Source: a virus. From it: a stretch of DNA of 43,842 nt. The position numbers and the translations under genes are program-made. Shown here piece by piece: positions 13,720 through 17,595 of the stretch (its first letter is position 1; each line of letters opens with the position of its first letter). The notes under the pieces were generated by a model. That model searched no databases and was not told the DNA's origin. It worked only from the letters and a program-made list of their open reading frames with translations. The stretch spans positions 1 to 43,842 of IMG/VR virus record IMGVR_UViG_3300032174_000015. One strand, given 5' to 3'.

Positions 13720-13736
13720 GTCAAGTGTGCCGTCAA

Positions 13737-13817
13737 GTACCTGTGCCGTGCGCCTACCATGTCTGCGTACCGATTGCAAGCCGAATCGGACTACCAGGTG
13801 GTAGGTGGCACGGGTAC
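13737..13817 (+). ncRNA. Long nested hairpin downstream of the ImmA-like gene
   Basis: Three co-axial stems close one hairpin: 13737-13747 with 13807-13817 (11 bp, one wobble), 13753-13759 with 13799-13805 (7 bp) and 13770-13775 with 13784-13789 (6 bp, 8-nt loop). The chance of such nested pairing is low. It may be an mRNA 3' stabiliser, a recombination or origin hairpin, or part of a cis-acting RNA with the element that follows. Confidence 0.65.
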
Positions 13818-13818
13818 T

Positions 13819-13864
13819 TGCATCCTTGCCTGGTGTGTGGTAGGGGATGCATGGCGCACCTTTT
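13819..13864 (+). terminator. Terminator with an alternative competing stem
   Basis: GGTGTG (13832-13837) pairs with CGCACC (13855-13860) followed by TTTT, giving an intrinsic terminator for the 11902-13719 operon. TGCATCC (13819-13825) can instead pair with GGATGCA (13845-13851), which is mutually exclusive with it. This gives a two-state layout typical of attenuators. Confidence 0.6.
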
Positions 13865-14417
13865 GACAGCCGCCATGACACAACCGCCCGCACGTTTGAC
13901 CCCCGATGTGCCCTTGACTTTCCGTGAAAAACCGGCTTAGTCCTGCGACTTTCTAGTTTCATTTGTCGAAAAAGCGCAGAGAGGGGCGTATTCAACGCCG
14001 TATTCATTCTCAGGTCGCTTTTTACAGGGCTTTGACTACCCATCCTCTGCGTAGCTCTCTATCTGGAGCTGGGACTTTGTTTGCGTAGCTGGATCAACAG
14101 TTTTGGACCCGTTTCATTTGTATTCACGCGCAGGAGGGATTAGAAGGGGTTGGAGGCCCCTGTAGTAACTTTGCTGATCGCCGTTTGTCCTCTCGCTCCA
14201 GAGCCGGTAACCCCTCGGGCACGATCCTCTCGGCAGCCCTAATAGAACCCGGTAGGTGCATCCTGTGTCGCTGAGCGGGTGCAGTGACGGTTGTTTGTGT
14301 CCACCCACCGTATCCGCCCCCAAACCAGCCGCGCACCGATGTCGGCGCTCACCTACAACCGCATTCTGCCGACGAACGCCGACGCCCAAGCGTGGTCAGA
14401 GCCCGGTTCGCGGTCGT
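13865..14417. other. Repeat-bearing non-coding region, candidate origin or regulatory block
   Basis: No credible gene in ~550 bases. It holds TTGAC elements at 13863, 13896 and 13914, GTTTCATTTGT twice (13956 and 14111), TGCGTAGCT twice (14048 and 14082) and CGTATTCA twice (13987 and 13999). AT-richer patches such as 13951-13975 contrast with the GC-rich surroundings. Short ORFs here have poor composition and no ribosome sites. Confidence 0.55.
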
Positions 14418-14558
14418 TATACTGATTGAGCGTACCCGTGTCCCGACCCGCGCAAAAGCCGCACTAACCGCGGCGACTAGCGCAACGGCCCTCGTCGCTG
14501 GAGAACTAACCCCCCTCCGGGCGAGGGCCTCGTCGGTTCTGCACGCTAGAATGCCTAG
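14418..14558 (+). promoter_or_regulatory. -10 box and structured leader of a small-gene operon
   Basis: TATACT at 14418-14423 is a good -10; no convincing -35 is seen (GTCAGA at 17-bp spacing). The 130-base leader has an outer stem CTAGCG/CGCTAG (14477-14482 with 14544-14549) enclosing GGCCCTCG/CGAGGGCC (14487-14494 with 14522-14529). It then runs into the GTG start at 14559, whose initiation region lies just outside the stem. Confidence 0.5.
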
Positions 14559-14723
14559 GTGAACCCCTTCTCCCATAAATGGGACGCAATGGAAGATGTC
14601 TACACCGAGCAAGAGCAGTTCTTTGACTGGGTGGACCGCCAGATTGAGATACAGGAGTACGAGGAAGTCCCCGAGGAGGACTGGGTGTACACCGAGGACG
14701 GACCGGGATGGAGGCAAGGATGA
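14559..14723 (+). CDS. Very acidic small protein (54 aa)
   Basis: GTG start 14559 (an internal ATG at 14589 is the alternative). More than a third of residues are Asp or Glu, interspersed with Tyr, Trp and Phe, and the net charge is strongly negative. Such composition is typical of DNA-mimic inhibitors that block DNA-binding host proteins, but this is inference from composition. It overlaps the next gene by ATGA. Confidence 0.65.
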   Translation: MNPFSHKWDAMEDVYTEQEQFFDWVDRQIEIQEYEEVPEEDWVYTEDGPGWRQG

Positions 14724-14869
14724 TTTGCATGAGGGCGCAAGGCTGGTCACAGCTGTCCCAGGAGCACAGAGCGAACTATCGCGAGGTGGCGGCTCACCAA
14801 TATCCGCACCAGCCGGGTCGTTGGTTCGTTGAGCTGGAGCTGATACCAAGACCGGATCCACGCACGTGA
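14720..14869 (+). CDS. Small protein (49 aa), unknown
   Basis: ATG overlaps the previous stop, with GGAGG six bases upstream. Helical N-terminus and a Pro-rich C-terminus (PHQPGRWFVELELIPRPDP). Overlaps the next gene by GTGA. Not recognised. Confidence 0.6.
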   Translation: MICMRAQGWSQLSQEHRANYREVAAHQYPHQPGRWFVELELIPRPDPRT

Positions 14870-15018
14870 TTAGCGTCGTCAAGGTGGCGAATGCAGCAAA
14901 GAAATATCTGGATGCCGAGGAGGCATGGCAGAAAAGCGGATCAGAAGAGGATGCCGAAAGGCTGCATGCGGCGTTCTATGGTCTGAAGGAAAGCATCAAG
15001 GGGTGCTCGACCGGGTAA
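14866..15018 (+). CDS. Small helical protein (50 aa), unknown
   Basis: GTG start in the previous stop (GTGA). Amphipathic helix-turn-helix pair (ANAAKKYLDAEEAWQK, then EDAERLHAAFYGLKES), typical of tiny early phage proteins. It ends just before the -10 box of the candidate ncRNA. Confidence 0.6.
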   Translation: MISVVKVANAAKKYLDAEEAWQKSGSEEDAERLHAAFYGLKESIKGCSTG

Positions 15019-15028
15019 CGGTGGCCTC

Positions 15029-15320
15029 TATACTGTGACCGAGGCTCACTTAGCGGTGGGCCAAGGACATGGCTGAAAAACGGCTGCCGAAGTATGGGCC
15101 GTAAAGCACACCGAGGCTGGAGAAATCCCAACCCACCCCAAGGGCAAATCTGCTGGAGGGAAGGAGCGGGCACCGGGCGCAACCCGGTAAGACCGGCAAT
15201 GCACGACTCCGTGGTAGAGGGGCGTTCCCACTGATCGGGACACTTCCCCCCTCTTGTCGGTCCCCGAATCCGACTGTCACGGGGAGGCTCCTGGCTAACG
15301 CTGGGGGCCTCCCCTATTTT
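15029..15320 (+). ncRNA. Candidate structured ncRNA of about 285 nt with own -10 and terminator
   Basis: TATACT (15029-15034) starts a 285-base stretch without a sensible ORF. Visible stems are ACGGC/GCCGT around 15080-15103, ACCGGG/CCCGGT (loop CGCAA) near 15170-15188, GAGGGG/CCCCTC enclosing TCCC/GGGA near 15216-15255, and GTCGG/CCGAC near 15256-15275. It ends with GGGGAGGC/GCCTCCCC and a U-rich tail (15281-15320). An 11-codon ORF at 15069 is the only possible peptide. I do not recognise RNase P, tmRNA, 6S or a riboswitch class. Confidence 0.55.
15281..15320 (+). terminator. Intrinsic terminator
   Basis: GGGGAGGC (15281-15288) pairs with GCCTCCCC (15307-15314), and the stem is followed by TATTTTC. 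It ends the candidate ncRNA, 16 bases before the next start codon, so it could also attenuate transcription into 15336 onward. Confidence 0.8.
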
Positions 15321-15335
15321 CGTTAGGAGACAAAC

Positions 15336-15494
15336 ATGGGATTAATCGACCATCAGGCCGACGCACGGATCTACTACCGCAAAGCGCGCGACATCATTAA
15401 TGACGAGGAGGAGTTCCGCAACCTAGGAGCAGCGGTGGTAAACACCTACCTCCACGCAGCAGATATAGCATTGAAGCTGGCAAGGCAGCCGTGA
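15336..15494 (+). CDS. Small helical protein (52 aa), unknown
   Basis: TTAGGAGA lies upstream of the ATG. Helical with an acidic turn (DEEEF). Begins just after the terminator of the candidate ncRNA, so its expression may depend on readthrough. Its stop overlaps the next start (GTGA). Not recognised. Confidence 0.6.
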   Translation: MGLIDHQADARIYYRKARDIINDEEEFRNLGAAVVNTYLHAADIALKLARQP

Positions 15495-15799: not shown

Positions 15800-15929
15800 A
15801 CTGATAGCAGTGGCTACTCCGGTCGGCTGTCCGGACGCAGCAATCGTATGTGCAGAAGGGGAAAGGGCCTTGGGTAGCGCCGACAAATGGATACGCGTGT
15901 CCAGTCGGAGTGCGGTCAAGTAGCCTCTC

Positions 15930-16028
15930 ATCAGCAGGAGGATTAGTTAACCCCGTGCTTGCAACACGGGCCTCTTGCTTGGACGCATAAAACCACCCCG
16001 AGCCAGGTTCGACTCCTGGGGGCCACTA
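15930..16028 (+). tRNA. Degenerate tRNA-like element, anticodon TGC (Ala) if real
   Basis: A perfect T-arm (CCAGG-TTCGACT-CCTGG) is followed by GGGCCAC-T, which pairs 6 of 7 with GTAGCCT at 15934. CCGTG-CTTGCAA-CACGG forms an anticodon-type arm with TGC correctly placed (U33, A37). However, 33 bases separate the anticodon and T arms, far beyond a normal variable loop, and no proper D-arm is visible. It may be a tRNA remnant, a tRNA-like structure or a fragment captured from the host. Confidence 0.35.
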
Positions 16029-16087
16029 GAACAAAAGCCGGGAAGGTGCGGACATGCATGCAGGCTTGTTAACCGGGCCGCACCGCA

Positions 16088-16181
16088 ACTGGGTTGGTTG
16101 CCCAGACCTGTGTGACTGCATTGTCACACAGGTACGTTGTAACTGATTGTGACAATACCGTCACTGGGTTGGTTGCCAGAC
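16088..16181. repeat. Paired direct repeats flanking a perfect hairpin
   Basis: ACTGGGTTGGTTGCCcAGAC at 16088 and ACTGGGTTGGTTGCCAGAC at 16163 are near-identical and lie 75 bases apart. Between them CCTGTGTGAC-TGCATT-GTCACACAGG (16107-16132) is a perfect 10-bp stem without a U-tail, and ATTGT-G-ACAAT (16147-16157) is a smaller palindrome sharing GTGACAAT-type sequence. Candidate operators or a recombination site. Confidence 0.6.
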
Positions 16182-16295
16182 TTGACAGACGAGTAGGGAG
16201 TATCGGACATGTCGCCCCGACAGCGACTCCACCCTGGCCGGTACTCCCTGCTGGTCTGTTATGATGAGGAATGGGTAAAGGCAAGGGAGGTACGT

Positions 16296-16550
16296 GTGGA
16301 AGCAGACCCTGAGTTCCTCGCTGAAACGGGAAAGAAAAAGTCGCCGTGTAGCATCGGCATTCTCATTTCCCAGCTTGACGAGAACGACCGTAAGCGTGTC
16401 AAGGACGCGCTGGAGGATGACCGGGTGAGTGCCCGTGCCATCGCAATCGTGTTAGGCAGGTGGTACGGCAACGCGAGCGGCAAAGGTATAGACGTTCAGC
16501 CGCAGCGCGTCTATCGCCACCGGACTGGAGTGTGTAGCTGTGGCCGCTGA
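16296..16550 (+). CDS. Small helical DNA-binding-type protein (84 aa)
   Basis: The start is taken at GTG 16296 because AAGGGAGG lies five bases upstream and TATGAT (16260-16265) gives a short leader. The frame is open from ATG 16209, which also has a weaker GGGAG site. Residues ~20-60 (LISQLDENDRKRVKDALEDD...SARAIAIVLGRW) look like a helix-turn-helix that recurs in small actinophage proteins. It ends in Cys-Ser-Cys-Gly. A regulatory or terminase-associated role is possible. Overlaps the phosphoesterase by 11 bases. Confidence 0.65.
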   Translation: MEADPEFLAETGKKKSPCSIGILISQLDENDRKRVKDALEDDRVSARAIAIVLGRWYGNASGKGIDVQPQRVYRHRTGVCSCGR

Positions 16551-17595
16551 CGAGGAGTTTTTACATCAGACCTATCAGGACACCATCGTTGGCCTGAAGG
16601 GCAGCATCAAGGACTTGCGCCGCCAGCGCGATGCAGTGATAGCAGCCCACAAAAAGCTGATGGTGCAATGTGACCTTCTGACATCTTTAGATGCGGTCAA
16701 ATCAGATGCTCCGAAGTGGCTGGTAAAGCCCAGCACCAAGGCACAGCATCAAGGCATAGCCAACCTGATGCTGTCGGACCTGCACCTGGATGAGGTGGTG
16801 TTCCCGGCGCAAATGGCAAACGCCAACGCCTACAACCGCAAGATCGCAGAGCGGCGGCTGCATGCCACCATCGACAACACCATCGACATCGCCCAGAACT
16901 ACATAACGGGCTACAAGTACGAGGGCATCACCGTCTGGCTGGGCGGCGACGTGTTCTCCGGAAACATCCACGAGGAGTTGAAGCAGACCAATGAAGCGCC
17001 AATCATGGCCTCGTTCGATTTTTGGATTGACCCTATGGTGGCTGCGCTACGGCTTCTGGCAGACGAGTTTGGGAAGGTCCATGTACCGGGCTGCGTCGGC
17101 AACCACGGACGCAACACCTACAAGCCAATCGCTAAGAACCGCGTCGAAGATAACTTCGACTGGCTTTTCTACCGTGTGCTCGCACGGGAGCTACGTGGTG
17201 ATCCCCGCTTCACATGGCAACTCCCGGTTAGTGCGGACGTGTCGGTGCGGCATTACGACCACCGTTACCTTCTCACCCACGGCGACCAGTTCAGAGGAGG
17301 CTCTGGCATTAGCGGAATACAAACACCGCTTGCGCTTGGAGCGTTCAGAAAATCAAAGCGCCAGCAGGGAGTCGGGGAGCCCTTCGACACCATGCTCCTC
17401 GGACACTTCCACCAATACAGCACCCTTCCCGGCATCCTCGTTAATGGAAGCCTGAAGGGCTACGACGAGTACGCGAGCATCAGCAACTTCGGTTTTGAGG
17501 TGCCGCAGCAGGCATTCTGGATCAGCACGCCAGAGCGCGGCCCCGTGTTCCACGTTGCGGTGCAACCAATGAACAGGGAGCGTGAGGGATGGTAG
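16540..17595 (+). CDS. Calcineurin-like metallophosphoesterase, SbcD/Mre11-type (351 aa)
   Basis: All five metallophosphoesterase motifs are present in order: Asp80-x-His82 (SDLHLDE), Gly-Gly-Asp137, Gly-Asn188-His189, His247 (THGD) and Gly-His289-x-His291. The two-metal centre should hydrolyse phosphodiesters. An N-terminal coiled region (1-45) precedes the domain. This resembles phage-encoded Mre11/SbcD-like nucleases, but no SbcC/Rad50 ATPase gene is visible, so it would act alone or with the host partner. GTG start overlapping the previous gene. A role in end-processing alongside the Rad52-type protein is inferred. Confidence 0.82.
   Translation: MAADEEFLHQTYQDTIVGLKGSIKDLRRQRDAVIAAHKKLMVQCDLLTSLDAVKSDAPKWLVKPSTKAQHQGIANLMLSDLHLDEVVFPAQMANANAYNRKIAERRLHATIDNTIDIAQNYITGYKYEGITVWLGGDVFSGNIHEELKQTNEAPIMASFDFWIDPMVAALRLLADEFGKVHVPGCVGNHGRNTYKPIAKNRVEDNFDWLFYRVLARELRGDPRFTWQLPVSADVSVRHYDHRYLLTHGDQFRGGSGISGIQTPLALGAFRKSKRQQGVGEPFDTMLLGHFHQYSTLPGILVNGSLKGYDEYASISNFGFEVPQQAFWISTPERGPVFHVAVQPMNREREGW

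Follow-up and report, generated by a model that had tools for sequence, protein, structure and literature searches.

The window considered here is the full 43,842 nt of the IMG/VR virus record IMGVR_UViG_3300032174_000015, whose GC content is 58–64% along its length and whose terminase shows a distant relationship to Streptomyces phage terminases (about 31% over 28% of its length). Within a run of small same-strand ORFs, two of them (14866–15018 and 15336–15494, both +) flank a structured stretch at 15019–15335, in which a GC-rich block follows the hexamer TATACT and comprises ~240 nt of structured RNA and then an intrinsic terminator (Table 1). A sequence-only reading had placed a structured non-coding RNA gene here, between a promoter and a terminator, and this remains the best reading of the locus. 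The TATACT that it named is present at 15029–15034, and the stretch indeed has no sensible ORF on the + strand; two minus-strand ORFs of 65–76 codons cross it. The −35 hexamer, TCGACC from 15007, is weak, and the −10 box ends 30 nt before helix P1. This is the single promoter match in the 2.5 kb between 14000 and 16500, where 0.8 would be expected by chance, and taken alone it means little, as it is not above chance. The terminator had been described as an 8-bp hairpin with a U-rich tail: the tail holds, but the stem has 15 bp (−31.1 kcal/mol), and on neither strand of the 43.8-kb window does any other hairpin of −18 kcal/mol or below precede a T-run.

Table 1. Features of the structured locus, with positions in the window.
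Feature	Position	Strand	Evidence
Promoter-like site, TCGACC – 16 nt – TATACT	15007–15034	+	9/12 against the sigma-70 consensus
Predicted RNA: manA-like domain (15043–15283) plus terminator	15041–15320	+	RF01745 match; fold z −2.4
5′ hairpin H1, GGCUCAC/GUGGGCC	15043–49/15056–62	+	7/7 pairs; position of the manA 5′ hairpin
Closing helix P1, 5′ strand GGACA (manA GGGAG)	15065–15069	+	4/5 pairs with 15275–15279 standard
Core UGGCUGAAAAA, including H2 and UAAAG (15102–15106)	15070–15107	+	R2 match 15072–15107, model 8–43
P2a	15072–73/15106–07	+	Pairing check
H2, ACGGC/GCCGT	15080–84/15098–102	+	Placed as in P-TIM40 and P-RSM1 manA
Branched domain P3, CACCGAG/CUCCGUG	15109–15/15207–13	+	6/7 pairs, one C-C mismatch; interior ~90 nt
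Hairpin ACCGGG/CCCGGU within P3	15172–77/15183–88	+	Minimum-energy fold; not equated with any manA helix
H4, AGAGGGG/CCCCUCU, with inner UCCC/GGGA	15216–22/15248–54, inner 15226–29/15237–40	+	11/11 pairs; covered by both model matches
T-arm-like hairpin, GUCGG-UCCCCGAAU-CCGAC	15256–60/15270–74	+	5/5 pairs; UUGU-GGU...AAUCC as in manA
P1 3′ strand UGUCA, adjoining the T-arm-like stem	15275–15279	+	Pairing check
Intrinsic terminator, 15-bp stem (15281–15314), tail UAUUUUCGUU	15281–15324	+	−31.1 kcal/mol
Downstream ORF, 52 aa, 15 nt past the RNA end	15336–15494	+	Translation; without PHROG match

When 601 nt were searched alone against the 4227 families of Rfam, the element matched manA (RF01745) at 15043–15283 over model positions 1–192 of 192, with 34.6 bits and E = 2.8e-7 (about 2e-5 when scaled by length to the whole window). 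The sequence-only reading had recognised no known class, a view that this full-length match overturns. It had itself proposed the Rfam search, which did return a known class, but with a score short of the curated gathering cutoff of the family (55.2 bits), and the element is therefore termed a "manA-like" variant and not a formal member. In an Rfam scan of the whole window the match is absent, because Infernal filters tighten with length. As control stretches of the same window, 13720–14600 gave nothing to E = 10 and 15800–16200 only E = 3.5.

Cyanophage manA RNAs were gathered from IMG/VR and phage records, and in their alignment 28 of the 49 pairs change on both sides, a signal that is gone when the alignment is slid by one column. 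A model built from cyanophage sequences only, with the window excluded (R1), finds its best match in the 43.8 kb at the element when the filters are disabled (13.8 bits; E roughly 0.013), and with default filters it has no window match. For a second model (R2), weighted toward a divergent cyanophage subtype, the two best window matches are the halves of the element, 15213–15274 (model 106–168) and 15072–15107 (model 8–43), on the same strand and in the right order. We also used a descriptor that requires the core UGRCUGAANAA, UAARG, a T-like arm of 5 bp with correct loop ends and no fewer than four P1 pairs. It matches 130 fetched loci and has one match in the window, at the element, with none in the unrelated pattern-hit loci examined or in 10 Mb of Markov sequence of window composition; having been defined after the window was seen, it speaks for specificity but does not amount to an unbiased test. 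The conserved manA core UGACUGAAUAA...UAAgG and UUGU-GGU...AAUCC appears in the window as UGGCUGAAAAA...UAAAG and UUGUCGGU...AAUCC, and the GUGGUG loop in P3 and GUAG-AAUGCCC in H4, (nearly) invariant in the cyanophage alignment, are absent from the window. Judged by these comparisons, the element is most likely related to manA RNA, though strongly diverged from it; that class had been found almost exclusively in viruses of ocean cyanobacteria.

The 280 nt of the predicted RNA fold at −123.0 kcal/mol, against −111.4 (sd 4.9) for shuffled sequences (z = −2.4; 2/200 shuffles equally stable), and the manA-type fold, at −117.4 kcal/mol, lies 5.6 above this unconstrained minimum. All consensus manA helices are present in order (P1, P2a, H2, P3, H4 and the T-like arm), with 7/7 pairs in H1 and 32 of the 34 pairs outside it standard, P3 being counted as the six pairs that Rfam aligns. 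Relative to the cyanophage consensus, both sides have changed in three pairs of P1 (GC to AU, AU to CG, GC to AU), one of P2a (AU to GC) and three of P3. The four stems drawn in the sequence-only reading, namely ACGGC/GCCGT, ACCGGG/CCCGGT, GAGGGG/CCCCTC (15217–22/15248–53) around TCCC/GGGA, and GTCGG/CCGAC, are all present, three as manA helices and the fourth inside an insertion; a one-to-one matching of the small P3 hairpins to manA counterparts was not possible. Two other candidates were rejected: a T-loop motif, for want of the UNNAN pattern, and a mini-ORF at the core (ATGGCTGAAAAACGG...TAA; GTGACTGAATAA in cyanophages), whose stop varies (CAA in some members) and whose SD spacing is poor.

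With manA RF01745 the window RNA shares the order and kind of its helices (5′ hairpin, P1, P2a/H2, P3, H4, T-like arm), the motifs UGRCUGAAWAA, UAARG, GG and CC in H4 and UUGU-GGU..AAUCC, and a promoter directly upstream. It differs in coming from a GC-rich 44-kb virus record rather than a marine T4-like cyanophage, in a P3 interior about twice the cyanophage length, in a P1 one pair shorter with a terminator that begins 2 nt after it, and in a T-like loop of 9 nt, where cyanophages usually have 11. The placement of H2, three nucleotides past CUGAA and just ahead of UAAAG, agrees with that in the divergent subtype (P-TIM40, S-SSM7, P-RSM1), where UAAAG or UAAUG comes next, but those manA RNAs keep GUGGUG and UUCGCUUUAGCGA and are about 170 nt long. 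The 6S/Ms1-like role suggested in the sequence-only reading finds nothing in its favour: the window RNA would likewise be a small standalone RNA of comparable size, yet 6S RNA and Ms1 are absent from the Rfam matches of the element up to E = 10. Their architecture is one long bulged hairpin, whereas that of the window is a closed multi-branched cloverleaf. Nor does the element match wcaG RNA (RF01761), a cyanophage RNA class reported alongside manA (PMC2864571).

Among 50,697 phage records, the manA consensus and two manA RNAs match marine cyanophages and marine single-cell viruses, at one place per record, the lone exception being a 35-base match at chance level in an Edwardsiella phage coding sequence. 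The same records hold no nucleotide relative of the window element, pattern scans of IMG/VR for close relatives return just chance coding matches or ordinary cyanophage manA, and neither yielded sequences intermediate between the two. A pattern search of bacterial genome contigs found a few with ordinary manA, the remainder being chance, and in a sample of the Prochlorococcus phylum manA occurs in 1 of 292 genomes, namely the centre genome of the sample. The contigs filed as bacterial that carry cyanophage-type manA come from Nonlabens (L300), a Flavobacteriales MAG (L301), a Gammaproteobacteria MAG (L310) and a Prochlorococcus single-cell genome (L302), and are possibly phage DNA in these assemblies. 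In the nearest IMG/VR relatives of the virus itself (terminase identity 79% and 69%), no manA-like element was found by R1, R2, the descriptor or Rfam; one whole-genome search of these relatives is weak, the same method having missed the window element, and the best R2 matches over their two records are scattered fragments. The RNA would therefore be accessory in this lineage.

The cyanophage loci themselves bear on how the RNA may work, with the proviso that they are mutually related and their counts are not independent events. A sigma-70 promoter scoring at least 10/12 precedes 105 of 116 cyanophage elements, against 35 of 689 control stretches, and among sites scoring 9 or more the −10 box ends 15–32 nt before P1 in 105 of 106. 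With the −10 box this close to P1 at nearly all loci, manA RNA therefore starts at the transcript start. Downstream, an intrinsic terminator of −8 kcal/mol or better lies within 180 nt in 33/121 (22/701 in controls), a tRNA gene within 250 nt of manA in 8/121, and the late-promoter motif [AC]TAAATA, on the manA strand, in 36/122 (22/842 in controls; 0 on the other strand). This cyanophage motif has been reported as NATAAATA (PMC2984593). A second sigma-70 promoter was searched for past the manA terminators and none was found, the late-promoter motif standing there instead. The neighbouring genes vary (gp23-gp3, regA-purL, pstS, nrdB-talC, gp32, ferredoxin, tRNA-Gly), and each of seven cyanophage genomes searched whole has exactly one copy. 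Taken together, these loci are better explained by a free-standing RNA gene than by a switch for one particular gene. An anatomy of own early promoter, single copy, changing neighbours, and terminator, tRNA or late promoter downstream thus favours a trans-acting RNA over a riboswitch. As a separate observation, in many of the loci (for example L204, L210, L166 and L183) manA is followed by another conserved hairpin, AGACCTAAGATGCAACTC...GGGCAGATGGTCT, and a U-tract; being conserved internally, this hairpin is perhaps more than a terminator.

Our preferred reading, held with modest confidence, is that 15041–15320 is a phage RNA gene of a highly diverged manA-like kind, standalone and probably encoding a trans-acting, single-copy accessory RNA. 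Host RNA polymerase would initiate from the TATACT promoter, some 7 nt ahead of the 5′ hairpin, and the transcript, of roughly 280 nt, would end at the strong terminator. The RNA is predicted to fold as a closed cloverleaf, in which P1 joins the ends and stacks on the T-arm-like hairpin and H2, P3 and H4 branch from the core, and it would most likely act in trans by binding a host protein or RNP. Because the cloverleaf is closed, with P1 and T-arm stacked, our first guess at the target, which is conjecture, is the tRNA-handling or translation machinery. A role in trans had also been proposed in the sequence-only reading, and would agree with the genomic anatomy of the family. Sequence evidence supports the kinship with manA, the fold and the terminator, as it does the family's free-standing anatomy; that the TATACT promoter is active and the RNA a separate transcript, we infer. 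For manA as a whole we propose, tentatively and with somewhat less than even confidence, a free-standing trans-acting viral RNA family rather than a cyanophage riboswitch. Its members would share a closed cloverleaf and occur well outside cyanophages, in forms that have diverged past the reach of the present Rfam model, and the window would carry an example from a GC-rich virus that has a promoter of its own and a constitutive terminator.

A rather unlikely alternative is a cis-acting manA-type leader, that is a riboswitch or attenuator which sets read-through of the terminator and, through it, the expression of the small ORFs beginning at 15336. Weinberg et al. 2010 listed manA as a riboswitch candidate (PMC2864571), and Rfam, as does the literature, types it as cis-regulatory. 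The terminator stands 21 nt before the ATG at 15336, no promoter of its own is seen for that ORF, the one promoter match of the region precedes the RNA, and cyanophages are known to have both an early and a late promoter in front of a single gene (PMC2984593). By position the RNA may be a cis-regulatory 5′ UTR: it lies 15 nt before the ORF, with a strong terminator separating the two. Against the leader, no competing or antiterminator pairing for the terminator arm is predicted in the window, so that 15281–15314 shows no sign of the mutually exclusive terminator and antiterminator of a riboswitch expression platform, and forbidding the stem costs 32.5 kcal/mol and leaves the remaining fold unaltered. 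In cyanophages, what follows manA is an unrelated gene, a tRNA gene or a terminator, and a late promoter often intervenes before the next gene.

That the RNA belongs to a novel class unrelated to manA, its likeness due to chance or convergence, we consider improbable. The sub-cutoff score, the missing GUGGUG, the long insertion in P3 and the lack of any intermediate sequence all speak for it; against these stand the E-value reached over the 4227 families, the best window matches of both R1 and R2 at this place and in correct order, and the same succession of promoter, 5′ hairpin, P1, H2, P3, H4, T-like arm and terminator. An RNA derived from tRNA or resembling tmRNA is suggested by the cloverleaf layout, by the T-arm-like hairpin adjoining the closing stem and by a weak tRNA–manA link of 13 bits in CMCompare (PMC3692125), but is very improbable: default ARAGORN makes no call in the window and its tmRNA mode none in this region, the element has no Rfam tRNA or tmRNA match, and in place of a 7-bp acceptor and a 7-nt T loop it has a closing stem and T-stem that add up to 9–10 bp rather than 12, a 9-nt loop and no CCA. 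A mere terminator behind non-functional GC-rich sequence, for which the modest fold z of −2.4 might be cited, is scarcely credible given the manA match and the descriptor.

Known since 2010, manA is complex and well conserved, has no assigned function and is classed as a riboswitch candidate. A relative as distant as this one, from outside the marine cyanophages, tells the essential core (P1, UGRCUGAAWAA, UAARG, H4, T-like arm) apart from features peculiar to one lineage, and the cyanophage locus counts argue for treating the family as a candidate trans-acting phage RNA.

Several other features lie near the RNA. About 600 nt 3′ of it, at 15918–16030 (+), is a tRNA-like cloverleaf with a T-arm (CCAGG-TTCGACT-CCTGG), an anticodon-like arm (CCCGTG-CTTGCAA-CACGGG), a mismatched acceptor and no CCA, which neither default ARAGORN nor the Rfam tRNA model calls. 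Upstream, about 870 nt at 13720–14590 hold few convincing ORFs, and here the box TTTGACCCCCGATGTGCC (13895–13913) is common to the relatives L002 (5583) and L003 (7481), the surrounding DNA not being common; it is a possible replication or packaging site. At 16082–16177 there is a pair of 21-nt direct repeats, the second with CACTGGGTTGGTTGCC as its core, together with an inverted repeat of 17 nt, GTGACTGCATTGTCACA/TGTGACAATACCGTCAC; they look operator- or origin-like. The exonuclease gene at 16540–17595 is 77% identical to that of the nearest relative (L002, 8252–9235), where it is inverted relative to the terminase.
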